A stretch of DNA of 64,000 nucleotides, taken from the NCBI RefSeq assembly GCF_000715075.1, contig NC_134100.1, forward strand, positions 29,990,042 through 30,054,041, read 5' to 3'. The translations under genes and the position numbers were made by a program. Below are positions 11,721 to 52,942 of the stretch, one piece after another (within the stretch, counting starts at the first letter, position 1; the number at the start of each line of letters is the position of its first letter). The notes below the pieces were generated by a model, which searched no databases, was not told where the DNA came from, and was given only the letters and a program-made list of their open reading frames with translations. Origin of the DNA: Nicotiana tabacum. Lineage: Eukaryota; Streptophyta; Magnoliopsida; Solanales; Solanaceae.

Positions 11721-11828
11721 ACCTGCAACTTTTATACTTAACCGATTTTAAAACCCATTTTTCATATTCCCTCAAACATAAACACACTTAGGCGATTTTT
11801 CAAGGATTCCTTCTTCTCCAAATCAATT

Positions 11829-12256
11829 GTAAGTCGTTTTTAACTAGTTTTCTTCAATCATTAACATCTTTTAACATGATTTCAACTTAAATTCAAAGAT
11901 TTTCATGGGGGAAATTGGGTGTCTTGGGTAGAACCTAGGTTTTTAAAAAATTGGGGATTTGGACCTCGATTTGAGGTCCGATTTCAAAACAAATCATATA
12001 TTTGGGTTCGTAGGGGAATGTGTAATCGGGTTTTGGTCCGAACCTCGGGTTTTTGACCATGTGGGCCCGGGGGAGATTTTTGACTTTTTGGTTAAAACTT
12101 TGATAAAAAACTCACTTTCATGTATTGGGGTTGATTTATTTAGCGTTTATTGATGTAATTAAGTAATTTATGGCTAGATACGAGTGAATTGGAGGTGGAA
12201 TCAAGGAGTAAATCTATAATTGAACTTTGAGTTGTGTTCGAGGCATCGAGGTAAGT
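11829..12256 (+). promoter_or_regulatory. Putative intron, 107-nt exon and second splice donor inside the B 5' LTR
   Basis: Donor-like attgtaagt (GT at 11829), acceptor-like ttgatttatttag (ends 12143), then 12144-12250, then gaggtaagt (GT at 12251). The same order and nearly the same spacing occurs in B's 3' LTR (20008, 20320, 20428), in B' (41002, 41304, 41412), in H (43844, 44152, 44255) and in the 3012-5725 LTR. This is inferred from consensus and position only. Confidence 0.5.
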
Positions 12257-12544
12257 GTTTGGTCTAACCCTAGCTTGAAGGATTAGGAGTTGTGTCCTAT
12301 TTGTAATTGATTCTTGTTGAGTACGACATATAGGCATGGTGACGAGTATCTATATGTTGGTGTTGAGCATGACCGTGAGTCTTAAATTGATATTTGTTGT
12401 TTTCCTAAATGATTCTACGGATGCTTTAATTGATGATTTTCGATATTGGGCAATGATTTAGTTTATTTTCGTGGAAATTTATTTATGACTGAGTATCGAT
12501 ATTAATTGAGCTAAGTAGAAGTTGAGTTAAGATTGGTTATAGCT

Positions 12545-12980
12545 GATTCTCCCATGCCGGGATGTTTGTTTTGATATTGTTTTTCCCTTCCTGGGAAGTT
12601 ATTATACTATTTTGTTCCCTTGCCGGGAAATTATTATATTGCTTTGTTCCCTTGTCGGGATTTCCTTGTGCTTTTGTATTGGCTTGAAATGGGAGGGGGT
12701 GGTATGCCTACCACAAGTTGTAATAAAATGGGAGCGGGTGGTACGCCTACCACAAGATTTAATGAAATGGGAGCGGTTGGTACGCCTACTATAAGATGTA
12801 ATGAAATGGGAGCGGGTGGTACGTCTACCACGAGATTAAATGAAATGGGAGCGGGTGGTACGCCTACCACGAGATTTAATGAAATGGAAGCAGGTGATAC
12901 GCCTACCACAAGATTTACTTAAATGGGAGCGGGTGGTACGCCTACCACGAGATACGAGAAATGGGATCAGGTTGCATGCC
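12545..12980 (+). repeat. Two tandem-repeat blocks in the B 5' LTR
   Basis: First come three to four units with ttcccttgccggga (12545-12670). Then come about seven units of roughly 40 bp built on atgggagcgggtggtacgcc followed by taccac and gagatttaatga (12690-12980). The ggta-cgcc-tacc part of each unit is a short inverted repeat. Equivalent blocks with different copy numbers are at 20725-21070 and 41600-42140. Confidence 0.85.
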
Positions 12981-13730
12981 TGCAACAAGATGTGAACCGA
13001 AATGAAGTCTTCCATTGTTTTCTTTATTCTTGTTAGGAGTAACTTTGGCTTCTTTATAATTCTCTTGATATTTTGTTTTTTTATCTGTTATTTCCCCGAA
13101 GCATGTTCCCCCTTCCCAGCTTTTATTGCTTGTATCAGTTTATTTCCCGCCATGTATGTATGTATATATATATATAAATGCACAGGTTTATCTGGAGTCT
13201 GGTCCTAGCCTCATCACTACCTCGTTGGGGTTAGGCCAGGCACTTACCAGCACATGGGGTTGCTTGTGCTGATACTACATTCTGTACTCAGTGCAGATAC
13301 CGGAGCAGCACTTGGTCAGCAGCAGTAGGGGAGCCAGCCTTCAGTCCACCGAGACTCCGAGGTAGCCCTGCAGGCGTTCGTAGGCCCGACATCTATTCTA
13401 TCAATTTTTATGTTCTGTTATCATTTGTACTCGAGACAGACCATGTTCTTTTGTTTCAAACACTTATTTGTAGTAATCATAGATAGTCCGTGAATGTTGT
13501 GACACCAGTTTCTAGGTAAAGGCATATGTGGAGTTTCTTATTATTTTGGTTCATTTTATCTATGTCTTCCGGTTAATCTCATATTCCGCTGTTTAAATGT
13601 TATTATATCGAAATTGTTAATGAATATAAAATAGGTAAAAAGGTAAATTGTGTAATTAATTGGTTTGCCTAGCTCGTACTAGTAGGCGCCATCACGACTC
13701 CGGAGGGTGGGAATCCGGGTCGTGACAAGT

Positions 13731-18919: not shown

Positions 18920-21795
18920 TGTGATGACACTTGTTTAATAATGAAATTCTGTGTTCTAAGGCCTTAAAAAACCTCTTTTAGTGTCACCTCAATTTGTGTG
19001 CATAGTCGGGCGTGTAGCCGGAAAGCCTAAATATGAAAATCTATGAAAAACGATAAATTTTGACTGTAAAATGAGCTAATTTGACTTCGGTCAACATTTT
19101 AGGTAAACGTACCCGGACCCATGATTTGACGGTTCTGGAGGGTCCGTAGGAAAATATAGGCTTGGGCGTATGCCCGGAATCGAATTCCGAGGTCCCAAGC
19201 CCGAGAAATGAATTTTTAAAGGAAATTATTTTTTGGAATTGTTTAATGAAATTTGATTAAAACATGATGGTATCGGGACCGTATTTTAGTTCCGGCACCC
19301 GGTACAGGTCTTATATATGATTTAAGACATTCCTATAAAATTTAGAGAAAAACGGACGTCGTTTGACGTGATTCGGACCTAAATTGCTAAAGTTGATGTT
19401 TTAAGAAGTTTGAGAAAGTTCTATGATTTTAAGGTTTAATTCGTTGTTATTGAGGTTATTTTGGTGATTTTATTACACGAATAAGTTCGTATAATGTTTT
19501 TGAGGTTGTGTGTATATTTGGTTTGGAGCCCCGAGAGCTCAGGTGAGTTTTGGATAGGCCACGGGTTGCATTTTGAACATAGAAGTTGCAGAAAAATTTT
19601 TGCTGGTATGAACATGCCTGCAGGCTTCGCATTTACAAAGCCTGGCTCGCAAATGCGAAGGCTGGATCGCAAATGTGAAACTAGCCCAGGCCTGCCTTGA
19701 CTTACAAATGCGAGGTTTTCTTTGCAAATGCGAAGGTTTGCCTATTGGCCAGGGATCGCAAATGCGATGTTTCCTTCGCAAATGCGAATGTTTGGGATTT
19801 TTGAAGGGTTCGCAAATGTGAACCCTGTTTCGCATTTCCCAGCTTATCAGAGGTCGAGGTTCACAATTGCGAACCCCTGTTCGCAATTCCCATACCTGCA
19901 ACCTGCAACTTTTATTCTTAACCGATTTTAAAACCCATTTTTCATATTCCCTCAAACATAAAGACACTAGGCGATTTTTCAAGGATTCCTTCTTCTTCAA
20001 ATCAATTGTAAGTCGTTTTTATCTAGTTTTCTTCAATAATTAACATCTTTTAACATGATTTCAACTTAAAATCAAAGATTTTCATGGGGAAAATTGGGCG
20101 TCTTGGGTAGAACCTAGGTTTATCAAAAATTGGGGATTTGGACCCCGATTTGAGGTCCGATTTCAAAACAAATCATATATTTGAGTTCGTGGAGGAATGG
20201 ATAATCGGGTTTTGGTCCGAACCTCGAGTTTTGACCATGTGGGCCCGGGGCGATTTTTGACCTTTTGGGTAGAACTTTGGAAAAAAACTCACTTTCATGC
20301 ATTGAGGTTGATTCATTTAGCATTTACTGATGTAATTAAGTAATTTGTGGCTAGATACGAGTGACTTGGCGGTGGAATCAAGGGGTAAAGCTATAATTAA
20401 ACTTTGAGTTGTGTTCGAAGCATCGAGGTAAGTGTTTGGTCTCACCCTAGCTTGAGGAATTAGGAGTTTTGTCCTATTTGCTAATTGCTTCTTGTTGAGT
20501 ACGACGTATAGGCATGGTGACGAGTATCTATACATTGGTGTCGAGCATGACCGTTAGTCTTAAATTGATATTTGTTGTGTTCCTAAATGATTCTACGGAT
20601 GCTTTAATTGATGATTTTCGATATTGGGAAAGGATTTAGTTTATTTCGTGGAAATTTATTTATGACTGAGTATCCGTATTAATTGAGCTGAGTAGAAGTT
20701 GAGTTAAGATTGGTTATAGCTGATTCTCCCTTGCCGGGATGTTTGTTTCGATATTGTTGTTCCCTTGCCGGGAAGTTATTATACTATTTTGTTCCCTTGC
20801 AGAGAAGTTATTATATTGCTTTGTTCCCTTGCCGGGATTTCCTTGTGCTTTGGTATTGGCTTGAAATGGGAGCGGGTGGTACGCCTACCATAAGATTTAA
20901 TGAAATGGGAGCAGGTGATACGCCTACCACGAGATTTAATAAAATGGGTGCGGGTGATTTAATGAAATGGGAGCGGGTGGTACGCCTACCACAAGATTTA
21001 CTGAAATGGGAGAGGGTGGTATGCCTACCACGAGATATGAGAAATGGGATCGGGTTGCACGCCTGCAACAAGATGTGAACCGAAAATGATGTCTGCCATT
21101 GTTTCTTTATTCTTGTTAGGAGTAACTTTGGCTTCTTTATAGTTCTCTTGATATTTTGTTTTCTTATCTGTTATTTCCCCGAAGCATGTTCCCCCTTCCC
21201 AGCTTTCATTGCTTGTATCAATTTATTTCCCGTCATGTATATATATATACATGCATAGGTTTATTTGGAGTCTGGTCCTAGCCTCGTCACTACCTCGCCG
21301 GGGTTAGGCCAGGCACTTACTAGCACATGGGGTCGGTTGTGCTGATACTACACTCTGCACTTTGTGCAGATACCGGAGTAGCACTTGGTCAGCAGCAGTA
21401 GGGGAGCCAGCCTTCATTCCACCGAGACTCCGAGGTAGCCCTGCAGGCGTCCGCAGGCCCGATATCTCTTCTATCGGTTTTTATGTTCTGTTATCATTTG
21501 TGCTCGAGACAGACTATGTTCTTTTCTTTCAAACACTTATTTGTAGTAATCATAGATAGTCCATGAATGTTGTGACACCAGTTTCTAGGTAGAGGCATAT
21601 GTGGAGTTTCTTATTATTTTGGTTCATTTTATCTAAGTTTTCTGCTTAATCTCATATTCCGTTGTTTAAATGTTATTATATCGAAATTATTAATGAATAT
21701 AAAATGGGTAAAAATGTAAATTGATTGATTGGCTTGCCTAGCTCGACTAATAGGCTCTGTCACGACTCCTGAGGGTGGGAATCCGGGTCGTGACA
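18920..21795 (+). repeat. 3' LTR of B (2876 bp)
   Basis: TGTGATGACAC ... GGTCGTGACA. Compared with the 5' LTR it lacks about 15 bp near the start and has fewer of the 40-bp units (20860-21070), accounting for most of the length difference. The CGC-N4-GCG array is at 19622-19900 and the splice-like sites at 20008, 20320 and 20428. Confidence 0.92.
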
Positions 21796-28093: not shown

Positions 28094-28573
28094 TGTTACA
28101 CTCCAAATTTTGTACATGAAAATATGCCATAAATAAATTAATGAGAGCTCGAAAGTGAGATGTCACGTCCCGCAGTACTATATTACGATGATGTTGCACC
28201 CTGTAGTGTTGTACGTTGAATTTGTTGCAAGGTAATTGACATCAATACAAGGAAAAGATTATTTGGAGATTATAAGAATTATTCTATTTCAAACAAGTAA
28301 TAAGTAAATTCGTGAAGGTGAGATGGGAAGCAAGTCAAAGAAAATGAATTTTCGTCCAAGTTTGGTATGTTGGGATAAAATATGGCTTGAGCTAAAATAC
28401 TTGGTATTTATAGACTAGTACCAACATGGTACCACATGACCATAATAGTAAGGTGTATAAGGTATGTGAAAAGTGAGTGATATTTTAAGTAAGTGGGAAT
28501 AATTCTTAATTTTGCGGGTAACGGGATATTACCTAATTAATTGGGGGATATATTTAGATAAGATCAACCGCCC

Positions 28574-28579
28574 CACGTG
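28574..28579 (+). promoter_or_regulatory. G-box in the G LTR
   Basis: CACGTG in the context gccccacgtggcagc, conserved at 35230-35235 in the other LTR. In plants this core binds bZIP and bHLH factors (light, abscisic acid and stress responses). It may be native to the LTR or captured with the adjoining gene piece; the sequence does not decide which. Confidence 0.4.
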
Positions 28580-28805
28580 GCAGCACCCCCAAATCCCCAT
28601 GTATGAATATTTAAGTTAAATAGAAAGGTGGCAAATGAAGGGAAGGTCCCAACTCCCAACACATTCACATTCAAGAAATCCAGATATGAGATACCCATTT
28701 TCAATCCCTTTAGCGAAAAGCTGTTATTATTGGAATTAATCCCTCTTTATTACTATGTCATCTTTCCCCATTCCTAACTCCATTTCTCCAGTAGAATTAT
28801 AAAAA

Positions 28806-29146
28806 ATAGGCGCTTCTAAATCAGTTCCGCAGAAATCAATCCATGAATTCACTGTCAAGGTCATCCCTTTATAATGGTTTCTTCTATGGACATTAAAGGG
28901 AAAGATGTAGACCTTAGCATGTAAAAAGGCAAAGTGATTCTTGTCATTAATGTTACCTCCAAATGTGGGTTCACAAGCACCAATTATATCTAATTGACTC
29001 AACTCTATAACCACTACAAATATAAAGGTTTTGAGGTCTTTGCCTTCCCTTGCAACCAATTTTTGAAGCAAGAGCCTGGTACGAGTCAGAAAGCTCAAAA
29101 ATTTGCATGCACATGATTTAAGGCTGAATATCCCATTTTCCAAAAG
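28806..29146 (+). pseudogene. Captured glutathione peroxidase fragment, copy in the 5' LTR of G
   Basis: Plant glutathione peroxidase (thioredoxin-dependent lipid and hydroperoxide reductase) sequence on the LTR's sense strand. Segment 1 (28806-28859) gives [17 protein letters not shown] with its start codon mutated to ATA. A 29-bp non-coding stretch beginning GT (28860-28888) follows. Segment 2 (28889-29146, 86 codons) contains [26 protein letters not shown] (peroxidatic Cys retained), FAFPCNQF (the Gln-containing signature), [16 protein letters not shown] and FKAEYPIFQK. It stops at FQK, so the WNF region and the rest of the ~170-residue protein are absent. Stops are at codons 12 (TAA), 35 (TAA) and 76 (TGA) of segment 2. 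An antisense open frame covers the same DNA by chance. Confidence 0.88.
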
Positions 29147-30275
29147 CAGGATTTTGCGATTCTAAGGGAGTACGGTGCAATCTTTCTCAAGAATATCACA
29201 TGGATTCTCCTCTACTTTGATGTGCCGTTACATTTTTGTTGCAATTGACGTATGTTAGAGGGGTGGTTAAGAGAATCAGCTCAGGTATGTTAAGGCTATC
29301 CCTTCTTTCTTTTAGCATGATCCATACGATATAAACGGAACAAGCAAATGCAAAACTTCCATAAATTACTCTATTCGTAGAAATGCTAGAGATGTGTATA
29401 TTCTTATTCTCCCATGTGTCATATTATTCTATCATCTGTTCATGTGTCTCAAAAATACGTAAGTTTGTAAAGTTTATTTCATGATATTTATCAGAGGTAT
29501 AATGGTCTTATGACGTACCGAGAGAATTTATTAATGTATTTCATATGCATTTCATGCATTTATACATGCACATTGACCCATGACCAGATGGAGTTATACG
29601 CGTATTTATATGTATATATATGTATATGGGATATGGGAAAAGGTTAGGCGTTATATACGCACCACCACCTGATCAGCTGGTATACGTTGATGATTTGCCC
29701 ACAGTGGTCAAGATGATATAATGGGATGCCCTCAGAGACTTGATGATGTTATGAACACATATATCTATGCACGATATGACATTCATACGCATATGCATGG
29801 CACTATAAGTATTTCATGATTCATAAAGCTATCCAGACTTACAGGTTGAGTCATTTACTTTATATTTCTTTTATGTCTATTATGTACTTATTTATGTGCC
29901 TTACATACTCGGTACATTATTCGTACTGACGTCCCTTTTTGCCTAGGGATGCTGCATTTCATGCCCTAAGGTCCCGATAGACAGGTCGAGAGCCCTCCAA
30001 GTAGGCTAGCAGCTTAGCTGAAGATGCTGGTGTGCTCCATTTGCTTCGGAGTTGGTTGTTTGATTAGTATGATTTAGATGTGTATTGTTTGGTATGACGG
30101 GACTCTGTCCTGACCTTTATGAAAATTATGTATACTTAGAGGCTTGTAGACAGATGTCATTACTCTAGTTCATTTACCTATGATAGAATGATATGAAAGA
30201 TATGTTACGTTAGTACTCGGTTGACTAAGGTACCAGGTGCCCGTCGCGGCCCATCGGTTTGGGTCGTGATAAAAC

Positions 30276-30287
30276 TGGTATTAGAGC
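30276..30287 (+). other. Primer-binding site of G
   Basis: TGGTATTAGAGC, one change (C to T) from TGGTATCAGAGC, 4 nt after the LTR. Confidence 0.8.
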
Positions 30288-33200
30288 ACTTTTATCCTAT
30301 GGAGTCTTACAAGTCGTGTCTAGTAGATTTTGTTTATGGGTGTGTCGTGCACCACACTTATAAGCAGAAGGCTACAGGATATTTAGGATCGTCACTCTTT
30401 GTTCTTACTCTAGATCGTGTGATAGAGCTCACTTATAAGAATTCAAATTCTGAAATTCTATTTTATTCGTAATAAGACAATATCTACATCCAGAAAGAAG
30501 GTTGGAAAGAGAGATAGTTGTGTAAGAGCTGAGTCAGAGGAATTCGATTTTTGTATGATGCCTACGATAAGTAAATGTGAGGCCTTTATCAGATCATGGG
30601 TACACTAAAAGGTGTAAGCTTCCTGATAAGAAGCCTTAAGGAAAGAATGCATATCCACCTTTATGGTAAAAGCCAACGAGAGATTAAGAAGATAAATACA
30701 AGTTTCAACAAGCAAAGAAAGCAAGATGAAGAAGGGTACGAGGCGCCCAGTTAATGAAGGTTAACAGTGTTTATAATTCAGGCAGAGGAACATAATTTTT
30801 TTTTGTAATATTCAATAGTGATAGAGGTATGTACAATTGGTCACACCCGTCTCAGTCATGCCCTATGGGAGCTAACGGATATAGTTTAAGAGAAGGACAG
30901 GACAGTTGGATCCGGTTGGGGTTAAAGTAACCCAAAAATGAGGAATGGATGGTTTGCATTAGTTGATATTTCCGAAGGATATTACAAAGGTGCTAATAGA
31001 TCTCCTTATGAGACACCCAGGTGGTGCACTCTAGAATATTACGATTATATGAGAATACTAGCGTGATCAAAAAAATTCCGAAGATAGCCACTGAAAGCTT
31101 GGAAAGGATAAATATTACCTTAGTGTGACTCTCATCCCTAGTAGAGCGAGGGGTTTGAGCAACCCGAAGAGCTGCTAAATGAAGCAAGGAGAGCTAAAAG
31201 CGAAATAATATCTTGTTGACAGTTTTAGAATAAAGTGATAGACAGAAATCTTAGCAGAAAATAAGAAAAGAGATAATGAAGCATTAAGAGTAAGATATGA
31301 TACCTAGATGACAGCGGTAGGTCAAAAAGATGATAGTATTACAGAATCTATAGTCAAATGAAGAAAGAGGTGAGGGGTGATGGTCCTTAAGACAACAAAA
31401 GAATATAGGCCATACAGTCACGTCCTCATTTTTACAAATAAGTTCGCGACTCTAACGTGATTAACAGAAGGGAAAGTTAGACCAAAGGGTAATGGAAATC
31501 AATATGAACTGGTGAACAAGATATACTAAACATGAATTAGGAACTGAGTGATTTGATAATAGTCAGCATCATGAGAATTTCATATTGCCTTCCGGCAATA
31601 ATAAAATGGACAACAGAAGAAGATCCTCGACGAATTCAGAGGATGGTCATTCAGGAAAACGCTTCCCTAAAGCAAGCAATGTGAGCAAAGTTAAGCTTAA
31701 GGGACTATATGTGCCACTTACACTAAGTGCCACCATTGCGAGTAAGGAATTTTTTTATCCTTGGTACATAAAGATTACCGCAAGGCGAGTAACGGTCATT
31801 GATGATGCGAAAGGATGCCAAAGATGGAGAGGAAAAGCATCTATAGGCAGGTCATCATAGCTCTAAGTCTTAGTACTCCCCCTAAAGGGAGGAATATGGA
31901 ATGATAAAGGAAGAATGCGATAAAAATGATAAAGGGATGAGATTGCACTTAGCCGAATCCTACAGATATGTTATGATTCCAAAACATTATGTAAGCACGA
32001 CGTCAGAAAAAGGAAGTAAGGGTTCCTGCCCGGAAGGTTATTGATAAATAAGGATCTAGTGCAAGAGGTAAGTTAGACAAAGGAAATAACCCAAGAGAGA
32101 TTACGCGGAATATGGATATGAGAATGGGTCGACGAGTAGTTAGTAGTTGATTCAGGAAGAGCCTAGTCATGGCTAGACAAGAAGTTACAGACAAATCAGT
32201 AGATCATGCAAGATGAATATAGTAAACCCCAACATGGAGAATTCAACCTCGTAGTAACGTCATTAAAATACTTGAGATATATTCAAATAGGAGCCGGGGT
32301 AGTTAAAGGTACCGCATGAGTGTTACGGGGATAAAAGAAAGTACCACTAGGAAGGCAGTCAAAATATCAGTTCAGAAGTAATCTTACAAGCATAAGGGCA
32401 TGGAGGTAGGCAAATACGGATGATTATAGGCAAGGAAGGACATCAAAAGGTCCGTAATAAGCTCACAACTTTACGAGAGTCAAGGGTTCTCCCTAAGTAC
32501 TAAAAAGAAAGACTAGCTGAGGAAATAAGGAAAAAGGCTTCAACCTAAGTTGGGTGACCTAAGGAGGAAATGGTCTTATAATGATAGTCTCATAACAACA
32601 TTGTATGCACTCCAAAAGAAAATGACACTTACTGTGGCTAAGGAACGGGAAGTAAAATCAAAAGTGATATTCAAGATCATATGAGTTCTATGGAATTCCA
32701 ATATGTGTGGACACCAAGATAAGCTATGTATGCATGCAAAAAGGGGGCAGAAAGACCAAGAAAAGTAATTGCTTACGTTTGAAGAAAGTTGAGATGGAAC
32801 AAAAAGAATTATTCAATTCATGATCCAGAGTTAGTTACGTTATGAACTCACTTAAGAGTTTGGAGTTTTATACATGCAGCATATACAACCGTAGAAAATT
32901 CCGGTATAAGTTAAAAGAAAGAATTGAGCTCAGGTCATAGACAGACTGTATCATGGATATACCTCAGTGCCTATGAAAGGCTAAACATAATAACTAATCC
33001 CATGAACCGCATATCGGGAGGTAGCTTAAGCCTACATAAAGGCTGATCAGAAGAAAGAGGAAACTAAAGAGATACATCAACAAAATAAATCAGGAATCTG
33101 ATTATTGAACCCTAAAAATTATAGAAATCGTGATTGAGAACATTGCAGAATCACTCTTTCTATTAAAGGTACAAGAGTGATAATGCAATAGCCATATTCT

Positions 33201-34716
33201 ATAACGGCTCTACGATAAAGATAGTTAGAAGTGTCCTAACCGCATAAGAAGTTAGTATGAAGCTCTCACGAGATTGTGTAAAGAAGTGCATGTATTATAA
33301 TATAAGTTCAAGACGTGGATGTAAATTACACCTATGTGGAGGGAAGGTTATGAAAGAGATAGAAGATATGATGTGAGGCTTTAAGGAAAGTAAGTTAAAG
33401 GTGAAAAATGTACGAGATACTCAAAAGCAGAAGGTTGAGAACATTCCATACTTGGGATAGAAGGCTAGAAGTGCGGGGATTCAATATCCAGGAATGATAG
33501 CAGCGGTGTCAGTAACATATCTTCCATCCTATGGTCTAGGTATCGAAAAGCCTGATTATGAGAGTAAACAATAGTTAGAGACGATGTGATGTCTCGCTTG
33601 ATGTTCTAGAACAACATAAGGAAATCTATGGTGCAAGCAAGTTTAAGGAAGACCGCAAATAGTATAAATAGATATGTATAGGTCACAAGCTAAAGTATAG
33701 TAAAGTGACAAAGTTTTATGACAGGATGTAAGAATGAGAAAGGACGAGTGAGAAGGTTACGAGAAGGAATAAATCCTTGGGATTAAACCCATGAAAAAAA
33801 GAAAGCTAATGGTTTCTCTAAGTTATAGAAAGTTCAGTATAGCCTGAATGAACTCAAAGGAGTCTAAGACTAATAACATTCAAAAGAGATGGAATGTTGC
33901 CCTGTTAATAGAATGAGGGGTAATTATTATAGACAAAAAAATGACGTTCTGGCCTTCGATTAAGTAATGATATGACGAATAAAAGAAAGGGATCTCATGA
34001 TTGGACAGGATTAAAATACCTACGTAAGGTGAATCACATTAGGATGCCATGAGATACAGTTATGAAATTAGGGTATCGCCCAGGTGGATCAATCTAACCA
34101 TTTCAGATGTTCCCCGATAAAACGTGAATAAAATTGAGGTGAATCAATAATGGATGGATAAATGTTATAAAGTATGAGAGGAGATTAGGCCGTCATTCTT
34201 AAAGATGAACTGAAGGCATTAGAGGACATAGATTTATACGTATGAGATAAGCAATGAAAGTAACCTGAGATTTGGTAGCAGACCTCAGTAACGAGAAGTC
34301 GAGGTAAGAGTTATGGTACAGTATAACCTATGTAGATGTAGTAAAGTCATATGAATGGATAACTAGGTCTATAAAATAAAATATAGCAATATTCGTAAGT
34401 TCGACAAAATACCAAGCGAAGAACTTCAGGATTGGCTAAAAGCTAGAGGAAAAAGGAGAGGAGAGTCGCATAGCACACTTACAAGGTCAGTATTGTAGAA
34501 GCTGCATAATGGAAGGTAGAAACAGTTATGAGATTGGAAGGTATTCGAACACAAGTTATGGCGTGGGAAAGAGGCCTAAAGGGGGAATTCCCTGGCCTTT
34601 GGCCTTATTCACATAACAGTTGCCTAGATGGCAAAAGGACTACTAAAGTATTTGCAAGAGCTATGGGATTTGAGGACGATAAACGCATCAGTCAATATTC
34701 GAGGATGAATGTTCCA
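30288..34716 (+). other. Internal region of G, heavily decayed gag-pol
   Basis: A leader (tcttacaagtcgtgtctagt and similar) typical of gypsy elements follows the PBS. After that the sequence is purine-rich on this strand and no frame exceeds about 90 codons. One RNase H block is recognisable and listed separately. No gag knuckle, RT YxDD-type motif or integrase triad could be identified by eye. Confidence 0.6.
32762..32890 (+). pseudogene. RNase H remnant of G pol
   Basis: Translates to KVIAYV then a stop, RKLRWNKKNYSIHDPELV, a stop, and THLRVW. This corresponds to the RNase H segment that in element B reads [34 protein letters not shown] (in two adjacent parts). At least two stops are present. 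It shows that G is a Ty3/gypsy element of the same broad group and long dead. Confidence 0.75.
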
Positions 34717-34727
34717 AAGGGGGGGAA
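34696..34727 (+). other. Hairpin and polypurine tract before the 3' LTR of G
   Basis: TATTCGAGGATGAATG (34696-34711), a variant of the conserved hairpin with compensating A-T pairs in the stem, then aaagggggggaa ending at the LTR. Confidence 0.7.
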
Positions 34728-36940
34728 TGATTTTACATCCCATATTTCGTACATAAAAATACGCCATAAATAAATTAATGAGAGCCCGGAAGTGAGATGT
34801 CACATCCCGCAGTACTACATTACGACGATGTTGCACCCCATAGTGTTGTACGTTGAATTTGTCGTAAGGTAATTGACATCGGTCCAAGGAAAATATTATT
34901 TGGAGATTATAAGGATTATGCTATTTCAAACAAGTAATAAGTAAATTCGTGAAGGTGAGAGGGGAAGCAAGTCAAAGAAAATGAATTTTCGTCCAAGTTT
35001 GGTATGTTAGGATAAAATACGGTTCGAGCTAAAATACTCGGTATTTATGGACTAGTACCATACGAGATACCACATGATCATAATAGTAAGGTGTATAAGG
35101 AATGTGAAAAGTGAATAATATTTTAAGTAAGTGGGAATAATTCTCAATTTTGCAGGTAATTAATTAATTACCGGGTAACGGGACATTACCTAATTACTTG
35201 GGGATATATCTGGATAAGATCAACCTCCCCACGTGGAAGCACCCCCAAATCCCCATGTATGACTAGTTAAGATAAATAGAAAGGTGGCAAATGAAGTGAA
35301 GGTCCCAACTCCCAATGCATTCACATTCAAGAAATCCAGATATGAGATACCCATTTTCAATCCCTTTAGCCACTGTTATTATTGGAATTAATCCCTCTTT
35401 ACTATGATGCCATCTTTGCCCATTCCTAACTCCATTTCTCTAGTAGACTTATAAAAAATGGGAGCTTCTAAATCAGTTCCGCAGAAATCAATCCACGAAT
35501 TCACTGCCAAGGTCATCCCTTTATAATGGTTTCTTCTATGGACATTAAAGGGAAAGATGTAGACTTTAGCATGTACAAAGGCAAAGTGCTTCTTGTCGTT
35601 AATGTTGCCTCCAAATGTGGGTTCAGAAGCACCAATTATACCTAATTGACTCAACTCTATAACCAATACAAGGATAAAGGTTTTGAGGTCTTGGCCTTCC
35701 CTTACAACCAAATTTTAAAGCAAGAGCCTGGTATGAGTCAGGAAGCTCAAGAATTTGCATGCACAAGATTTCAGGCTGAATATCCAATATTATAACAGCG
35801 GAATTTTGCAATTCTAAGGGAGTACGGTGCAATATTTCTCAAGAATATCACTCGGATTCTCCTCTACTTCGATCCGCCGTTACATTTTTGTTGAAATTGA
35901 CATATGTTAGAGGGGTGGTTAAGTGAATTGGCTCAGATATACTAAGGCTATCCCTTCTTTCTTTTGGCATGATCCATACGATATAAACGAAACGAGCAAA
36001 TGCACAAATTCCATAAATTACTCTATTCGTAGAAATGCTAGATATGTGTATATTCTTATTCTCCCATGTGTTATATTATTCTATCATCTGTTCGTGGGTC
36101 TCAAAAATACGTAACTTGGTAAAATTTATTTCATGATATTAATCAGAGGTATAATGGTCTTATGATGTACCTAGAGATTTTATTAACGTATTTCATATAC
36201 ATTTCATGCATTTATACATGCACATTGACCCATGACCAGATGGCGTTATATATGCGTATTTATATGTATATGTATGTATGTAGGATATGGGAAAAGGTTA
36301 CGGCGTTATATACGCACCACCACCTGATCAGCTGGTATACGTTGATGATTTGCCCACAGTGGCCGAGATGATATGATGGGATGACCTCAGAGGCTTGATG
36401 ATGTTATGAACACATATACATATGTACGACATGACATTCATATGCATATGCATGACACTATAAGTATTTCATGATTCACAAAGTTATCCAGACATACAGG
36501 TTGAGTCATTTACTCTATATTTCATCCATGTTTGTTATGTACTTATTTATGTGCCTTACATACTCGGTACATTATTCATACTAACGTCCTTTTTTCCTGG
36601 GGACGCTGCATTTTATGCCCGTAGGCCCCGATAGACAGGTTGAGAGCACTCCAAGTAGGCTAGCAGCTTAGCGGAAGATGTTGGTGCACTCCATTTGCTT
36701 CAGAGTTGCTGGATTGGTTAGTATGATTTAGACATGTATTGTTTGGTATGGCGGGACTCTATCCCAAGCTTTATGAAAATTATATATTCTTAGAGGCTTG
36801 TAGACATATGTCATGTACCCAAAAGATTGTATGGCCTTGTTGGCCCATGTTCAGTACACGAGTGGCTATTTTTGTCTTATAAGCCCGTACTTCATATGTA
36901 TAAGTTTGTATTCCCTCATGTTTTACTCCGGTTCATTTAC
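34728..36940 (+). repeat. 3' LTR of G, left part
   Basis: Begins TGATTTTACATCCC, aligned with TGTTACACTCC of the 5' LTR. It is highly similar throughout, including the second glutathione peroxidase fragment, and stops at gttcatttac. The next bases belong to the chimeric insertion. The final 98 bp of this LTR are at 52845-52942. Confidence 0.9.
35458..35792 (+). pseudogene. Captured glutathione peroxidase fragment, copy in the 3' LTR of G
   Basis: The better-preserved copy. ATG (35458) opens segment 1, [18 protein letters not shown] (to 35511). The 29-bp stretch 35512-35540 begins with GT and breaks the frame. Segment 2 (from 35541) has [28 protein letters not shown] (peroxidatic Cys present), LAFPYNQI (Cys and Phe of the second signature changed), [18 protein letters not shown] and AEYPIL. 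A TAA at 35643-35645 is shared with the other copy, so it predates the copying of the LTR; a TAA also ends the match near 35792. The conserved Trp region of the enzyme is absent. Segment ends coincide with exon borders as I recall them in plant genes, and the border inside segment 2 (after SKC) is intronless, which favours an RNA-derived origin. That is inference. Confidence 0.9.
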
Positions 36941-37616: not shown

Positions 37617-37920
37617 GATCTCTTGGTATCCCAAGGATCTCTTGGTATCCTCAATATATGCTAGAAATCTCTTGGTATCCTCAATATATGCTAGGGATCT
37701 CTTAGTATCCTCAATATATGCTAGGAATCTCTTGGTATACTCAATATATGTTAGGGATCTCTCGATATCCCGAGAATCTCTTGGTATCCTCAATATATGC
37801 TAGGGATCTCTCGATATCCCGAGGATCTCTTGGTATCCTCAATATATGCTAGGGATCTCTTGGTATCCCGAGGATCTCTTGGTATCCTCAATATACGTGC
37901 CAGGGATCTCTTGGTATCCC
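37617..37920 (-). repeat. 30-bp minisatellite in the A2 LTR
   Basis: About eight copies of a 30-bp unit containing ggatctcttggtatcctcaa and tatatgctag on the plus strand, with some half-units (ggtatcccga). Because 30 is divisible by 3, it produces a repetitive antisense frame (10-residue units such as AYIEDTKRSL) that is not a gene. A1 has only diverged ~60-bp units at this place. Confidence 0.85.
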
Positions 37921-39886: not shown

Positions 39887-42749
39887 TGTGATGAACCAAA
39901 AGGTCATCACTTGTTTTTAAAATGAATTCTGCATTTCGAGGCCTTAAAAACCTCCTTTAGCATTACCTCAATTTGTGTGCGCAGTCCGAGCGCATAGCCG
40001 GAAAGCCTATATTTGAAAATCTATGAAAAAATGATAAATTTTGACTATAAAATGAACTAATTTGACTTCGGTTAACGTTTTAGGTAAACAAACCCGGAGG
40101 GTCCGTAGGAAAATATGGGACTTGGACGTATGCCTGGAATCGAATTCCGAGGTCCTAAGCTCGAGAAATGAATTTTTAAAGAAAATTATTTTCTGAAATT
40201 GTTTAAAGGATTTGGAAATGAGTTTTGATTAGAACATGTTGGTATCAGGCCCGTATTTTGGTTCCGGCACCCGGTACATGTCTTATATGTAATTTAAGAT
40301 AATTTTGTGAAGATTGGTAAGAAACAGAATCCGTTTGACGTGATTTAGACCTTAAATGCAAAATTTGATGTTCAAAGAAGTTTTGAGAAATTTCATTGAT
40401 ATTGAGGTTTAATTCGATGTTTCTGATGTTATTTTAGTGATATGAGTACACGAATAAGTCCGTGGGATGTTTTTGAGGTTGTGTGTATATTTGGTTTGGA
40501 GCCCCGAGGGCTCGGGTGTGTTTTGGATAGGCCACGAGGTGCATTTTTTAACTTAGAAAGTTGCAGATTTTAGCTGGTGTGTCCAGGCCTGCAGGCTTCG
40601 CAAATGCGAAGCCTCGCTCTCAAATGCGAGCTCGCAAATGCGAAGGCTGGATCGCAAATGCAAAACCAGCCCAGGCCTGCCTTGTCTCGTAAATGCGAGT
40701 GTCCTTTTAGCAAATGCGATGCCTTCGCTGTAAATGCAACATATGTGTCGCAAATACGACATTGTTTTCGCAAATGCGAAAGTCCAGCATTTTCTGAAGG
40801 GTTCGCAAATGTAAGCCTTGTTTTGCATTTCCCAGCTTAGCAAAGGTCGGGGTACGCAATTGCGAACCCCTGTTCGCAATTCCCATACCTGAGACCTGCA
40901 ACTTTTATACTCAGACGGTTTTAAACCCATTTTTCATATCCTCTCAAAACATAAACACACTAGGGCGATTTTTCAAAGGCTTTTTCTTCTCCAAATCAAT
41001 TGTAAGTTGTTTTTAACTAGTTTTCTTCAATCATTAACATCTTTTAACATGATTTCAACTTAAAATCAATGATTTGGGGAATTAGGTGTTTTGGGCAGAA
41101 CCTAGGGTTTTCAAAAATTGGGGATTTGAACCTCGATTTGAGGTCTGATTTCAAAACAAATTATATATTTGGGTTCGTGGGGGAATGGGTAATCGAGTTT
41201 TGGTTTGAACCTGCGTTTTGATCATGTGGGCTCGGGGGCAATTTTTGACATTTTGGCAAAACTTTGGGAAATTTATTTTCATGCATTCAAATTGATTCAT
41301 TTAGCATTTATTGATATAATTAAGTAACTTGTGGCTAGATTCGAGCGAATTAGTGGTGGAATCAACGGGTAAATTTATAATCGAAACGTGAAGTGTGTTT
41401 GTGGCATCGAGGTAAGTGTTTGGTCTAACCTTAGCTTGAGGGATTAGGAGTTGTGTCTTATTTGCTACGTGTTAATTGTGGAGTATGACGTATAGGCATG
41501 GTAACGAGTATCTATACATCGGTGTCAAGCATGTCTGTGGATCTTGTATTATAATTGTTATGATTCCATTGTGGTTTATTGTGCCTCACATGTTATTACC
41601 ATCATTGTTCCCTTGTCGGGCTATTTGTTTGATACTATTGTTCCCTTGCCGAGATATTGTTGAAATATCATTGTTCCCTTGCCGGGATTTTGTTGAAATA
41701 TCATTGTTCCCTTGCCGGAATATTGTTGAAATATTAATGTTCCCTTGACGGGAAGTTGTTATACTGTCCTTGTTCCCTTGCCGGGATTCTTTGTGATTGT
41801 TGTTGATTTGTAACATGGGAGAGGGTGGTACGCCTACCATAAGATATATGAAATGGGAGTGGGTGGTATGCCTACCACGAGATATATGAAATAGAAGTGG
41901 GTTGTAAGCCTACCATAAGATATGATGAAATGGGAGCGGGTGGTATGCCTACCACAAGATATATGAAATGGGAGCGGGTGGCACGCCTACCACGAGATAT
42001 ATGAAATAGGAGCGGGTAGTACGCCTACCACGAGGTATATGAAATAGGAGTGGGTGACATGCCTACCAAGAGATAAATGAAATGGGAGCGGGTCGCACGC
42101 TTGCCACAAGATATGAGAAATGGGATCAGGTTGCACGCCTGCAATAAGATGTGAAATGAAAGTGAAATCTGCCTTCGTTTTCCTTATCCTTGTTAGTAGT
42201 TGGATTTTGGTTCCCCATAATTCTCTTGATATTCTGTTTTTACCTGTTATTCTTTGAAGCATGTTTCCCCTTCCCATCTTTATTTGTTTATTTTTCTTTA
42301 CTTTCTGATATATATTATATAACTGCACAGGTTTATTTGATAGTCTGGTCCTAGCCTCATCACTACTTTGCCGAGGTTAGGCTAGACACTTACCAGCACA
42401 TGGGATTGGTTGTGCTGATGCTACACTCTGCACTATGTGCAGATCTCGGAGCAGCTCTTGGACCGTAGATTGGAGGCTTCCTTCAGTCCACCCGAAGATC
42501 CAAGGTAGACCTGCAGGCGTCCGCAGGCCCTGGCGTCTCCCTCTATCTCTATTTTCTATTTCATTTTATTTATATTCCGAAACAGTGTATTGTTGTTTTC
42601 TTCAGATCCTGTATGTAGTTAATCCTAATCTGTGACACTGTGACGCCAGGTTTTGGGTAACTAAAGTTTAAACAGTAGTAAAAGATACAGAGTTCAGCTA
42701 TTCATTGTTTTCTTCTGCTTAAAATTAAATTTTCGCTGTTATTACGTTA
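39887..42749 (+). repeat. B-family LTR (B'), left part
   Basis: TGTGATGAACC, closely related to both LTRs of B, with dyad array 40590-40885, splice-like sites 41002, 41304 and 41412, and tandem blocks 41600-42140 (five ttcccttgccggga units and about nine gggagcgggtggtacgcc units). Interrupted by H at cgtta; the last 126 bp are at 52719-52844. Confidence 0.9.
41600..42140 (+). repeat. Expanded tandem repeats in the B' LTR
   Basis: Same two blocks as in B but with more copies. The second block has about nine units of ~38 bp, each holding the ggta-cgcc-tacc inverted repeat. Confidence 0.85.
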
Positions 42750-45615
42750 TATAACGACCCAACCGGTTGTTTTGAGCTTTTGCATCTTTGCTCACCAGTT
42801 TTCGGGTGTGACTTAGACCGTGTGATGTATTATGACTTATGTAAATCATTGGTTTTGGTTTTCAGGGTAATCAGAATGAATTTGGAAGAACAGTTCTCAG
42901 TTTAAAACTTAAAATTTGAAAGGTTTGACCAAGATTTGACTTATTTGTCTATGATCCCAGATCGGGATTTTTATGATTTGGTTAGCTCCGTTAGGTGATT
43001 TGTGACTTAGAAGCGTAATTGAAATGGGTTTTGGAGTTGTAGAGGAGATATAGGCTTGAATTGGCGAAGTTGATATTTTAGCGATTTACGGTTGATAGGC
43101 AAAATTTTGATATAGGGGTCGGAATGGAATTCCGAGAGTGACAGTAGCTTTGTTGTGTCATTTGAGATGTGTGTGCAATATTTCAGGTCATTCGGACGAG
43201 ATTTGATAGACTTTTTGATCGAAAGCATAATGTAAGAGTTCTTTGAGTTCTTAGGCTTGAATCCTATGTTAAATTGGTGATTGATGTTGTTGTGAGCGTT
43301 CCGAAGTTTTGAACAAGTTTGAACGATGTCATGGGATGTTTTGGTATAATTGGTTTGAAGTTCCGGGGGTTCCGGGTAGGTTCCGGGATGTTTTAGGCCG
43401 AAAATTATAGCTGTAGCAGGTCCAGAAGGGTTGCAGGCCTCGGCACCCACCAGCGCGGTCCGCACAAAATGAAGTTCGGCCACGGTAGGTGCTATGGGGA
43501 CTGTACAAAATTCAGTGCGGTCGCGGTGGGGAACATTTCACTATTCCTACTTCAGAAGCTCATATCTTTTGATTTATAAGGAATTTTGAGATGACGCAAA
43601 AGCGAAAGTTGTAGCCCTTCGTGTCTCGTTTCCAGAATGGTAAAGATATCGCAATTGGGACATTTGTAGCGAAAGGTATGGCCAAAGTGCTAAAGCCTGT
43701 TGCTGCAGATGAAAACCTGTGTGGCCGCAATCGTTTTTGTGCGGACCCGTGTCGTTTTTGTGCAGATAAAAACTTGTGTTGTTTTTGACCTAGAGAGCTC
43801 GGATTTTGGTGATATTTAGAAGGTTTTCAAGAAATTCATCGGGGTAAGTGATTCTAACTCAGATTTGGCTAGAATACATGAATCTATCATTGAATTCACC
43901 ATTTAATTCGTGATTTGGGATGGAATTTTGGAAGAAAAGTTGTGGAAACTTCCAAAAATATAAAATGATGATTTGAAGGACCAAATGGCACCGGAATTGG
44001 ATAATTTTGGTATGGTTAGTCTCGTGAGGGTATGAGGATTCTGAAAATGTAAATTTTACCCGACTCTGAGACGTGGTTTCGGGGCTCGGGTTTGGTAATT
44101 TCAGGAATCGTGCCCTTTGTTGAATGTTTTCTCTTGGGCTTTGTTCCCTTAGCATATTGTGATGTATTCATTCTGATTTTGGATAGATTTGACATGCGTG
44201 GAGGCCGATTCGAGGGGCAAAGGCGTCGCGAGTTAGAGATTTAGCCGATTCGAGGTGAGTAATGATTGTAAATGATGCTCTGAGGGTTTGAAACCCCGGA
44301 TTTGCACATCGTAGTGCTATATTGAGGTGAGCACATACTTGATGACGAGCGTGGGGTCATTCACTATTGGGGATTGTGACTTGGTCCGTCCCGATTGATG
44401 ATTTTACCGCGTAATTGACTGAAACTTATTTGATATCATCATGAATTGGGTTGATTGCCATATTTGGTCTTTGTGCCAACTATTTGAACCCTTCGGGGAT
44501 TTTTATTACTATTTCCTCATTGTTTTGACTTATTACTTGAACTCAGTCATGATATTTTCCACTGGTTTACTACTCAGCCATCTTTACTCAGTTTTGAGAC
44601 TTAAATGATATTTTTAAATGATGTTTTGGGCTGAGAAATATTGTTTTACTATTGTCGAGGGGTTGTGATGATTTTTGGACTGAGTAAAGCCGAGGGCCTA
44701 GTTGTGAGGATACATTGATACTAATATGAGGCCGAGGGCCTGCGATACATAAACATGCCACGAGGTGGCTTGATTGATATGAGGCTGAGGGCATGGATTT
44801 GATGCCACGAGATGGCTTGATATTTCACTTGGGCTGTAAGGGGCCCCTCCCGGAGTTTGTACATCCCTAGTGAGCGCGGGTACCCATTATGATGTGAGAT
44901 TGAGCCCGAGGGGCTGATATTGTTCTGAGATTGAGCCCGATGGGCTGGTACTATTCTAAGATGTTGCCTGAGGGGCGGATTCGTTGATACTGTGCCCGAG
45001 GGGCGAACTTCTATTTGTTTACTTACCCGTCAATTACTTGTTTTATTTGTTGAAAAGGGATTTTACTTGACTCTTCACTGTTTTACTGTTTTAAGTGATT
45101 TTTACTGCTTCGGTATAGAATGCTTTGTGTTTTACGTGTTTTCTTACTTTTAGTCATTATTTACATGTGTTACTCACTGAGTTGGAGTACTTACTTTACT
45201 CCCTACACCCTATGTGCAGATTCAGGCATAGCTGGTATCGTTCCTAAGAGTTGATTCCTCCAGTTCCAGGCGGTTTTTTACGGAGACTACGAGGTAGTTG
45301 TTGACATCCGCAGCCCCATGTCTCTACTTCTCTATCATTTCTGTTTCCTTTCAAACACTTGTAGTAATTTATGACTTTAGCAGACTAGTATTATGGTTTA
45401 GAGATGCTCGTAACTTGTGACACCCCGGTTAGGGTTGTGTCGGGTTGGACTTTCCGCATTGTTATCGATATTTCCGCTATTTAGTATTGTTTAAATCATG
45501 TTTAGACTATTTTTATGTTGATTAACTACTTTAAAAGTTGATTTGGGTTGAACTGGCTGGCCTTGTCTTCATGAGAGGCGCCATCGCGACCGAGTTCGGG
45601 GTTAGAGTCGTGACA
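42750..45615 (+). repeat. 5' LTR of H (2866 bp)
   Basis: TATAACGACCC ... GAGTCGTGACA. Splice-like sites are GT 43844 (cggggtaagt), AG 44152 (ttcccttag) and GT 44255 (gaggtgagt). Mid-LTR repeats at 44690-45000 are built from 'gaggccgagggcc', 'atgccacgaggtggcttg' and 'gattgagcccgaggggctga'. Compared with the 3' LTR it lacks about 100 bp around 43760, including the TATA box. Confidence 0.92.
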
Positions 45616-45618
45616 AGT

Positions 45619-45630
45619 TGGTATCAGATC
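45619..45630 (+). other. Primer-binding site of H (altered)
   Basis: TGGTATCAGATC, where TGGTATCAGAGC is standard; the GAGC end is damaged. It lies 3 nt after the LTR. Confidence 0.75.
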
Positions 45631-49768: not shown

Positions 49769-49781
49769 GTGGGGGGGGGGA
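49744..49781 (+). other. Hairpin and polypurine tract before the 3' LTR of H
   Basis: Perfect CGTTCGAGGACGAACG (49744-49759), then a run of ten or more G (49769-49780) directly before the LTR. Confidence 0.8.
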
Positions 49782-52713
49782 TATAACTACCCGACCGATC
49801 GTTTTGAGCTTTTGCCTTTTTGCTCACCAGTTTTCGGGTGTGACTTAGACCGTGTGATGTATTATGACTTATGTAAATCATTGGTTTTGGTTTTCAGGGT
49901 AATCAGAATGAATTTGGAAGAACAGTTCTCAGTTTAAAACTTAAAATTTGAAAGGTTTGACCAAGATTTGACTTATTTGTCTATGATCCCAGATCGGGAT
50001 TTTTATGATTTGGTTAGCTCCGTTAGGTGATTTGTGACTTAGAAGCGCGATCGGAATGGGTTTTGGAGTTGTAGAGGAGATTTAGGCTTGAATTGGCGAA
50101 GTTGATATTTTGGCAATTTTCGGTTGATAGGCAAAATTTTGATATAGGGGTCGGAATGGAATTCCGAGAGTGACAGTAGCTTCGTTGTGTCATTTGGGAT
50201 GTGTGTGAAAAATTCCAGGTCATTTAAACGAGATTTGATAGACTTTTTGATCGAAAGCATAATTTAAGAGTCCTTAGAGTTCTTAGGCTTGAATCCTATG
50301 TTAAATTGGTGATTTGATGTTATTGTGAGCGTTCCGAAGTTTTGAACAAGTTTGAACGATGTCATGGGATGTGTTGGTACAATTGGTTTGAAGTTGTAGG
50401 GGTTTCGGGTAGGTTCAGGGATGTTTTAGGCCAAAAATCATAGTTGTAGCAGGTCCAGAAGGGTTGCAGGCCTCGGAACCCACCAGCGCGGTCCGAACAA
50501 AATGAAGTGCGGCCGCGGTAGGTGTTGTGCGGACCGTACAAAATGCAGTGCGGTCGTGGTGGGGAACATTTCACTAGTCCTACTTCGGAAGCTCATATCT
50601 TTTGATCTATAAGGAATTTTGAGATGATTCAAAACGAAAGTTGTAGCCTTCGTGTCTAGTTTTTAGAAAGGTAAAGATATCGCAATTTGGACATATGTAG
50701 CGATAGTTATTGCCAAAATGCTAAATCCTGTCACTACAGATGAAAACCTGTGTGGCCGCAGTCATTTTTGTGCGGACCGCACTAGTTTTGTGCGTACCGC
50801 GGTCGTTTTTGTACGGTCCGAAGAGGTGAAAATATGTGGGGTACTCTATAAATACGAGGTTTGGATTTTATTTAATATTTTGACCTAGAGAGCTCGGATT
50901 TTGGCGATTTTTTAAGGTTTTTCAAGAAATTCATCGGGGTAAGTGATTCTAACTCAGATTTGCTAGAATACATGAATCTATCATTGAATTCATCATTTAA
51001 TTAGTGATTTGGGATGGAATTTGTGAAGAAAAGTTGTGGAATCTTCAAAAATATAAAATGATGATTTGAAGAACCAAATGGCACCGGAATTGGATAATTT
51101 TGGCATGGTTAAGCTCGTGAGGGTATGAGGATTTTGAAAATGTAAATTTTACCCGACTTCAAGTCGTGGGCCCGGGGCTCGGGTTTGGTAATTTCGGGAA
51201 TCGTGCCCTTTGTTGAATGTTTTCGCTTGGGCTTTGTTCCCTTAGCATATTGTGACGTATTCGTTCTGATTTTCGATAGATTCGACGCGCGTGGAGGCCG
51301 ATTCGAGGGGAAAAGGCGTCGCGAGTTAGAGATTTAGCCGGTTCGAGGTGAGTAATAATTGTAAATGATGCTCTGAGGGTTTGAAACCCCGGATTTGCAT
51401 ATTGTAGTGCTATATTAAGATGAGACACACGCTTGATGATGAGCATGTGATCGTGCACTATTGGGGATTATGACTTGGTCCGTCCTGATTGATGATTTTA
51501 CCGCGTATTTGACTGAAACTTATTTGATATCATCATGATTTGGGCTATTTGCCATATTTGGGCTTTGTGCCAACTATTTGAACCCTTCAGGGATTTTTAT
51601 TACTATTTCCTCACTGTTTTGACTTATTACTTGAACTCAATAATGATATTTTCCATTGGTTTACTACTCAGCCATCTTTACTCAGTTTTGAGACTTAAAT
51701 GATATTTTTAAATGATGTTTTGGGATGAGAAATACTGTTTTACTATTGCTCGAGGGGCTTGTGATGAATTTTGGACTGAGTAAGGCCGAGGGACTAGTTG
51801 TGAGGATACATTGATACTAATATGAGGCTGAGGGCCTGCGATACATAAATATGCCACGAGGTGGCTTGATTGATATGAGACCGAGGGTCCTAGATTTGAT
51901 GCCACGAGATGTCTTAATATTGCGCTTGGGCCGTCAGGGGCCCCTCCCGGAGTTTGTACACCCCCAGTGAGCGCGAGTACCCATTGTGATGTGAGATTGA
52001 GCCTGAGGGGCTGATATTGTTCTGAGATTGAGCCCGAGGGACTGGTACTGTTCTGAGATGTTGCCCAAGGGGCAGATTCATTGATACTGTGCCCGAGGGG
52101 CGAACTTCTATTTGTTTACTTACCTGTCAATTACTTGTTTTATTTGTTGAAAAGGGATTTTACTTGACTCTTCACTATTTTACTGTTTTAAGTGATTTTT
52201 ACTGCTTCAGTACAGAATGTTTTGTGTTTTACGTGTTTTCTTACTTTTAGTCGTTATTTACATTTGTTACCTACTGAGTTGGAGTATTCACTTTACTCCC
52301 TCCACCCTATGTGCAGATTCAGGCGTAGCTGGTATCGCTCCTGAGTGCTGATTCTTCCAGTTCCAGGCGGTTTTTTTTCGGAGACTACAAGGTAGTTGTT
52401 GACGTCCGCAGCCCTGTGTCTCTACTTCTCTATCATTTCTGTTTCCTTTCAAACACTTGTAGTAGTTTATGACTTTAGCAGACTAGTATTATGGTTTAGA
52501 GATGCTCGTGACTTGTGACACCCCGGTTAGGGCTGTGTCGGGTTGGACTTTCTGCATTGTTATCGATATTTTCGCTATTTAGTATTGTTTAAATCATATT
52601 TAGACTATTTTTATGTTGATTAACTACTTTAAAAGTTGAGTTGGGTTGAACTGGCTGTCCTTGTCTTCATGAGAGGCGCCATCACGATCGGGTTTGGGGT
52701 TAGGGTCGTCACA
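49782..52713 (+). repeat. 3' LTR of H (2932 bp)
   Basis: TATAACTACCC ... GGTCGTCACA. GC-rich words (gcggtccg, gcggccgcgg, gcgtaccgcgg) lie at 50485-50560 and 50755-50825, TATA box 50847, donor 50939, acceptor 51245, second donor 51349, mid repeats 51775-52110. More complete upstream of the start site than the 5' LTR. Confidence 0.92.
50847..50854 (+). promoter_or_regulatory. TATA box of the H 3' LTR
   Basis: TATAAATA in the context gtactctataaatacgagg, 92 nt before the donor-like site. Missing from the 5' LTR because of the ~100-bp deletion. Confidence 0.65.
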
Positions 52714-52718
52714 CGTTA

Positions 52719-52844
52719 TCGCTTTATGTTTGCTAAAAGGGAATAATTTGATAATGAGGTAAGTAGTTAAAAGATTGGCTTGCCTAGCTCTCATTAGTAG
52801 GCTCCATCACGACTCCCGAGGGTGAAAAATCCGGGTCGTGACAT
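52719..52844 (+). repeat. B' LTR, right end
   Basis: Continues B' after H and ends 'cgactcccgagggtg...ccgggtcgtgaca', as in B's 3' LTR. Confidence 0.85.
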
Positions 52845-52942
52845 TTAACTATTGTAGAATGATATAAAAGATATGTTACATTGGTACTTGATTGAGTAAG
52901 GTACCGGGTGCCCTTCGCGGCCCATCGGTTTGGTTCGTGACA
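52845..52942 (+). repeat. 3' LTR of G, right end
   Basis: tttaa-ctattgtagaatgatat..., matching 30182-30271 of the 5' LTR to the final 'cccatcggtttggttcgtgaca'. Followed by ctaac, the right target duplication of G. Confidence 0.88.

Follow-up and report, generated by a model that had tools for sequence, protein, structure and literature searches.

How a piece of a host glutathione peroxidase (GPX) gene came to lie inside both LTRs of a tobacco retrotransposon is the question raised by this locus. The element (element G) lies on the plus strand of C21 of Nicotiana tabacum, within the window of 64,000 nucleotides that forms the whole stretch of DNA analyzed here (G000:C21:29990042-30054041). Each of its LTRs holds a GPX block of ~520 nt in sense orientation, made up of the 5'UTR, exon 1, 29 nt of intron 1 and exons 2-4. 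The remainder of intron 1 and the whole of introns 2 and 3 have been removed.

A spliced GPX block within an LTR element

The features of the locus, in window positions and all on the plus strand, are as follows.

28094-36937, +: LTR element, overall extent
28094..30271, +: 5' LTR (LTR5), begins TG and ends GTCGTGATA, GPX block inside; from LTR-pair identity and the ends of the C5 copy
28608..28615, +: TATA-like TATTTAAG of the LTR, also in GPX-less relatives; putative promoter role
28626-29146, +: GPX block in LTR5, from the genome match to the C22 gene
28626..28634, +: 5' junction microhomology; GPX-less relatives AATGTGGCAA, GPX gene TTAGGTGGCAA, here AAGGTGGCAA
28626..28805, +: GPX 5'UTR, LTR5; part of an unbroken 28626-28888 match to the C22 gene locus L028, 93.6%
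28806..28859, +: coding part of GPX exon 1, LTR5, from the gene alignment
28860..28888, +: 5' part of intron 1, 29 nt, LTR5; continues directly from exon 1 in the genes, alternative donor
28889..28965, +: GPX exon 2, 77 nt, LTR5; GT/AG exon bounds in the C22 and C19 genes
28966..29027, +: GPX exon 3, 62 nt, LTR5; holds a shared TAA stop (C>T at 28991)
29028..29146, +: GPX exon 4, 119 nt, LTR5; stops exactly at the splice donor, then LTR sequence
29147..30271, +: LTR sequence 3' of the junction, common to a large GPX-less family
30272..34730, +: internal region, from ORF and Pfam searches
30276..30289, +: PBS-like TGGTATTAGAGCAC, from the sequence
~34731 to 36937, +: 3' LTR (LTR3), 3' end missing, cut near 36938
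35282..35798, +: GPX block in LTR3, from the gene alignment; 5'UTR 35282-35457, exon 1 35458-35511, intron 1 piece 35512-35540, exon 2 35541-35617, exon 3 35618-35679, exon 4 35680-35798

The first-pass annotation had placed a GPX piece in both LTRs, and this was borne out by matches to Pfam GSHPx with E values of 3.7e-28 (LTR5) and 6.4e-28 (LTR3), obtained from queries in which stops were written as X and the 29-nt intron stretch was omitted. The protein-similarity search that it had proposed was run with a composite of both LTR copies and matched N. tabacum GPX4 (97% identity, 104 aa; 7997 candidates scored, of which the best 120 were shown). The best solved-structure match of the LTR3 reading was glutathione peroxidase 5 (2p5q), which we take to be of plant origin. 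The limits of the piece had to be redrawn: position 28806 was rejected as the 5' end of the block, as homology begins at 28626, 180 nt further upstream, and takes in the 5'UTR. Similarly, the 29-nt stretch was considered as a chance insert and rejected, being contiguous with exon 1 in GPX genes. The stop created by the C>T change at 28991 is common to both LTRs, and additional stops are private to single copies. Judged from its reading frames, the block encodes no GPX enzyme, because of the shared stop, the frame-shifting 29-nt piece, the private stops and its end before exon 5.

The surrounding element has the organization of an LTR retrotransposon, with direct terminal repeats (90.3% identity in the BLAST alignment and 91.5% over 2064 ungapped sites), a PPT-like tract just 5' of LTR3 and a PBS-like TGGTATTAGAGC just 3' of LTR5, both recognized from the sequence. 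The PBS-like TGGTATTAGAGCAC would match the initiator-Met tRNA. A TSD is invisible for the window copy because its 3' LTR is cut off; the copy on C5 is flanked on both sides by AACCC, with ends TGTTAC...GTGACA (by eye). When the internal region was split in 10 pieces, no Pfam match of any kind exceeded the cut-off, so that gag-pol coding was not recognized, and two matches fell below threshold (E 0.032 and 0.25). No long ORF is present in 30272-34730. The window element is thus a non-autonomous or decayed copy. A short reading, NYSIHDPELVTL, at window ~32800-32870 resembles the RNase H part of Ty3-type pol and may hint at the lineage.

Parent genes and GPX-less sister LTRs

Comparison of the LTR5 block with the 3.996-Gb assembly returned 23 match rows from 12 first-look candidates, all of which were scored; as very common words are skipped in this search, the counts given here are lower bounds. 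The matches comprised two LTR copies on C21, one on C6 and four LTR pieces on C5. Two near GPX genes, at 157.798 Mb of C22 and 60.119 Mb of C19, matched one exon at a time, and three more distant GPX loci (C22 at 2.81 Mb, C8 and C9) completed the set. From these alignments, the parents of the block are the C22 and C19 genes. Homology to the C22 gene runs from 180 nt upstream of the ATG position, unbroken, through the 29 nt of intron 1. GT/AG bounds are found in both genes at introns 2 and 3 and at the acceptor of intron 1. The parental introns are absent from the block, apart from the 29 nt retained, and its source was therefore a spliced message. The intron-1 donor used in the block is non-canonical today in C22 (TATG/TTAAG, the slash marking the boundary here and below) and deleted in C19; it has thus been disabled differently in L028 and L029, both tobacco genes. 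Plant GPX genes are described as having 5-7 exons, mostly six (PMC10342349, PMC11313330, PMC4802093); a search of papers for the sizes of these exons yielded none. In Datura stramonium, a GPX protein of 106 aa (P0025) is shortened just past the exon-4 border and has several private changes; it could be a pseudogene or another capture.

LTRs related to those of element G were collected with two queries, each fetched locus extending about 1.5 kb to each side. A query 3' of the block (29160-29560; 40 scored of 6678 first-look candidates) yielded 30 loci, namely the two window LTRs with GPX and 28 without a match to it. A second query across the 5' junction (28500-28640; 40 scored of 592 candidates) yielded 20 loci, among which GPX was present in 5 and absent from 15. 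Five pairs among these 15 GPX-less loci lie 6.2-8.7 kb apart (on C3, C21, C22 and two on C1), a spacing that would fit whole elements. The first-pass annotation had allowed that LTRs of the family might lack the fragment and that the present one had gained it by a later, separate insertion. The first part holds for the wider family (28/28 non-window loci with the first query and 15/20 loci with the second). The second does not, as the same junctions are found in other insertions.

Junctions and the route of capture

The GPX-less sisters typically read TTAAATAGAAATGTGGCAA, then 173-227 nt, then TATAGCAG/CGGGATTTTGCG, with CGGG right after the boundary. The GPX-bearing LTRs read TTAAATAGAAAGGTGGCAAATGAAG ... 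CCAAAAG/CGGGATTTTGCG, and the C22 gene reads GATTAGGTGGCAAATGAAG ... CCAAAAG/gtatgcc. The block has thus replaced 173-227 nt of LTR (10 relatives measured), and its 3' junction is exactly the exon-4 donor, CCAAAAG/gtatgcc in the gene having become CCAAAAG/CGGG in the LTR. That the host part ends at a splice donor is what 5' transduction by splicing predicts, as is an AG acceptor on the LTR side in GPX-less relatives. Such an AG is present in 7 of the 9 GPX-less close relatives printed (of 15) and absent in L077 and L085. Among 26 broader relatives printed of 28 and read by eye, about 22 have AA, 2 have AG (L056, L067), 1 has TA and 1 is unclear. Because AG occurs in 7/9 close relatives versus 2/26 broader ones, the acceptor looks like a trait of the subfamily that made the capture. 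AG makes up 5.7% of LTR dinucleotides, and a cut at one of the 5 exon joins would be expected by chance in about 0.7% of cases, with the message taken as 693 nt. Exon 4 and the LTR overlap at this junction by 2 nt, AG.

The 5' junction is of a different kind. Here the LTR and the gene share a microhomology of 7 nt, or of 9 nt with one mismatch. The junction is located 18-19 nt past the start of the TATA-like TATTTAAG common to the sisters, which would put it near the expected U3/R border.

We consider it probable that the block arose via 5' transduction, with an LTR retrotransposon as the vehicle. A member of the LTR family would have lain downstream of GPX exon 4, presumably in intron 4, in the gene's orientation. 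A transcript from the GPX promoter, possibly starting at the 5' junction (AGGTGGCAA), would have had exons 1-4 spliced with use of the alternative donor 29 nt into intron 1, and the exon-4 donor spliced to the AG acceptor within the LTR, with read-through across U5, the PBS and the element. Reverse transcription primed at the PBS would then have copied U5, the remaining LTR and GPX to the RNA 5' end, and the end of the strong-stop cDNA would have annealed via GTGGCAA to the 3' LTR, presumably at the U3/R edge, and been extended into U3. Completion of the cycle, perhaps a single one, would have left a new U3-GPX-R-U5 in both LTRs, and the new element would have moved at least three times and later decayed. 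Such a history would explain why the block is spliced, lies in sense and occurs in both LTRs, why one junction falls on a splice site and why the other has microhomology.

Some observations count against 5' transduction. Intron 4 of the C22 and C19 genes is large (about 5.0 kb and 6.4 kb, respectively) and could have housed the source element, yet a search confined to that intron, with the window LTR, one GPX-less relative and the window internal region as queries, revealed no LTR or internal sequence of the G family there today; the source element is possibly lost or polymorphic. The alternative intron-1 donor is now non-canonical in both genes, two of the close relatives (L077 and L085) are without the acceptor AG, and the 2-nt overlap at the 3' junction leaves room for a template switch.

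Two such switches constitute the main rival, which we regard as a serious though unlikely alternative. Reverse transcriptase at work on LTR RNA in the particle would have passed to a co-packaged spliced GPX mRNA and then back into U3 via the microhomology, and the U3, copied once, would serve both LTRs. The spliced source and the 7-nt microhomology speak for this route, and BARE-2 LTRs offer a described case of abnormal template switching (PMC13317346). It would account for everything except the coincidence with the exon end: the 3' junction falls exactly at an exon join and at an AG acceptor of the LTR with an overlap of just 2 nt, and the exon join alone has a chance of about 0.7%.

Being intron-poor and truncated, the block could also recall a LINE-generated processed pseudogene of GPX, or an insertion at the DNA level, placed into one LTR and then spread. 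We find this very improbable. The block ends at exon 4 without poly(A), so the missing end of the message is the 3' and not the 5' end; about 200 nt of LTR were replaced rather than added to; and the 7 nt on the 5' side reflect homology of the LTR to the gene and are no target-site duplication.

Returning to 5' transduction, we lean only slightly towards its fullest form, in which the locus would be the fossil of a complete event: a host-promoter transcript spliced into an LTR would have served as the strong-stop template, strand transfer would have occurred at the U3/R edge, and the host 5'UTR and four exons would have become the new RNA start in both LTRs within one cycle. Every transcript of the family would then begin with sense GPX message.

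Shared descent and relation to known captures

With all 12 first-look candidates scored, at least three GPX-bearing insertions exist, on C21 (the window), C5 and C6. All differ from both genes by LTR-only changes, namely a 1-nt deletion at 28659, A>C at 28778, the stop-forming C>T at 28991 and a 1-nt deletion in the A run at 28800, with the qualification that own deletions leave C5 uninformative at 28800 and the C5 3' LTR uninformative at 28778. Because C21, C5 and C6 share lesions within the block, a single capture was followed by transposition. The earlier suggestion that the capture predated the window insertion and moved with the element is thus upheld by a block, junctions and derived changes common to three loci. 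Its term "dispersed family" overstates the extent of the GPX-bearing form, for which only three insertions plus the genes were found, a lower bound. Conversion between LTRs is known in general, and the placing of GPX in each LTR after landing, through conversion or independent insertions, would be another way to fill both. Nothing found here speaks for it, and LTRs at three loci have identical junctions and derived changes in common, which leaves this hardly credible.

The C5 copies read as one element with the block in both LTRs, as on C21. A nested insert divides its 5' LTR, with ACATT duplicated inside GPX exon 2 (by eye), and a further interruption, in its internal region, falls near 30851-30857 (intervening stretch fetched in part). 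Both C5 LTRs (L034, L036; C5:57405000-57414900, 57441000-57449000) share a ~60 nt deletion removing GPX exon 1, and the 3' LTR has an extra deletion and three tandem copies of ~50 nt over the exon 3/4 join. The C6 copy retains a 3' LTR with the block and has lost its 5' LTR past position 28434 through deletion. A tandem duplication of ~51 nt lies in the captured GPX 5'UTR of this LTR (L033, C6:47820000-47825500).

At 15 sites where the two genes differ and the LTRs agree, the LTRs match C22 at 8, one of which (28634) falls in the ragged start of the C19 match, and C19 at 7. An unrooted tree groups the C22 and C19 genes with 87% support and leaves the branches of the LTR copies short and poorly supported, in an alignment disturbed by the duplications and deletions of the C5 copies. 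Given this site sharing and the tree, the capture probably took place near the split of the C22 and C19 gene lineages. K2P between LTR pairs is 0.091 for C21 (2064 sites), 0.080-0.083 for C5 and 0.062 for the C6 remnant (340 sites). Between the two genes, it is 0.088 over the first 2.2 kb of intron 4 and 0.28, 0.15 and 0.035 for introns 1, 2 and 3. Because the gene-pair values vary among introns, the dating of the capture is loose, and absolute ages hang on the assumed rate.

The closest parallels are the hominid 5' transductions by splicing of SVA_F1 (MAST2 exon 1) and pt_SVA_D6 (STK40 exon 1), for which the published account argues from exon ends, as done here (PMC6139936). As described there, splicing linked the donor of a host gene's first exon with an acceptor within the element, much of the element's 5' part was replaced and a new subfamily was founded, as is proposed for element G. 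Whereas SVAs are non-LTR elements, element G is an LTR element with four exons and no SVA backbone. It works alike without being a member, and its block lies within both LTRs, which calls for a strand-transfer step.

Gene capture by plant LTR elements is itself known. In maize, 425 intact elements with gene pieces and at least 189 captures are reported (PMC2774510), and Bs1 of maize and other plant LTR elements likewise captured host gene pieces and moved them along (PMC13317346, whose section 4 treats Bs1, Rider and BARE-2). The Bs1 pieces are described as being encoded inside the element, and a TRIM case is attributed to 3' transduction (PMC13317346), whereas in element G the piece lies in the LTRs with a 5' splice-type junction. 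BARE-2 is similar in that its LTR took up foreign sequence through abnormal template switching, which gave a new LTR type, but there the sequence came from another retrotransposon, Wis-2, and here from a host gene (PMC13317346). In section 4 of this 2026 review, 5' transduction is given as unreported in plants (PMC13317346). Our literature search of titles and abstract openings found no account of this GPX capture.

LTR-element gene capture is usually visible as an outcome only. With parent genes, GPX-less sister LTRs and GPX-bearing copies in one genome, both junctions are readable to the base and the route can be inferred. The case would show that an LTR can take a fresh transcript start region from a host gene, and it would make clear why a piece gained in this way turns up in both LTRs together. 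If transcribed from the LTR promoter, element RNA would start with a sense GPX message, from which small RNAs acting on the GPX genes might arise, as the first-pass annotation had suggested.

LTR-GPX chimeras were also sought among predicted proteins, where one search gave no candidate and another gave 4 weak matches (E 0.27-0.97), each of them an ordinary GPX protein. In viral contigs, exact-pattern scans gave no match, and 18 GPX relatives occur there, at 41-49%. A single Bartonella match in the exact-pattern scan of bacterial and archaeal genomes was taken as chance.

Other repeats are found elsewhere in the window. A 99-bp LTR-tail piece of the element G family at 52842-52940, with 88% identity to 30171-30269, adjoins another LTR-like end. 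A minisatellite with 30- and 49-nt units (ATCTCTTGGTATCCTCAATATATGCTAGGA) lies 3' of the element at 37637-37920. Further long direct repeats, 10794-13727 / 18928-21795 and 42749-45619 / 49781-52717, are 89-93% identical and possibly represent LTR pairs of other elements.
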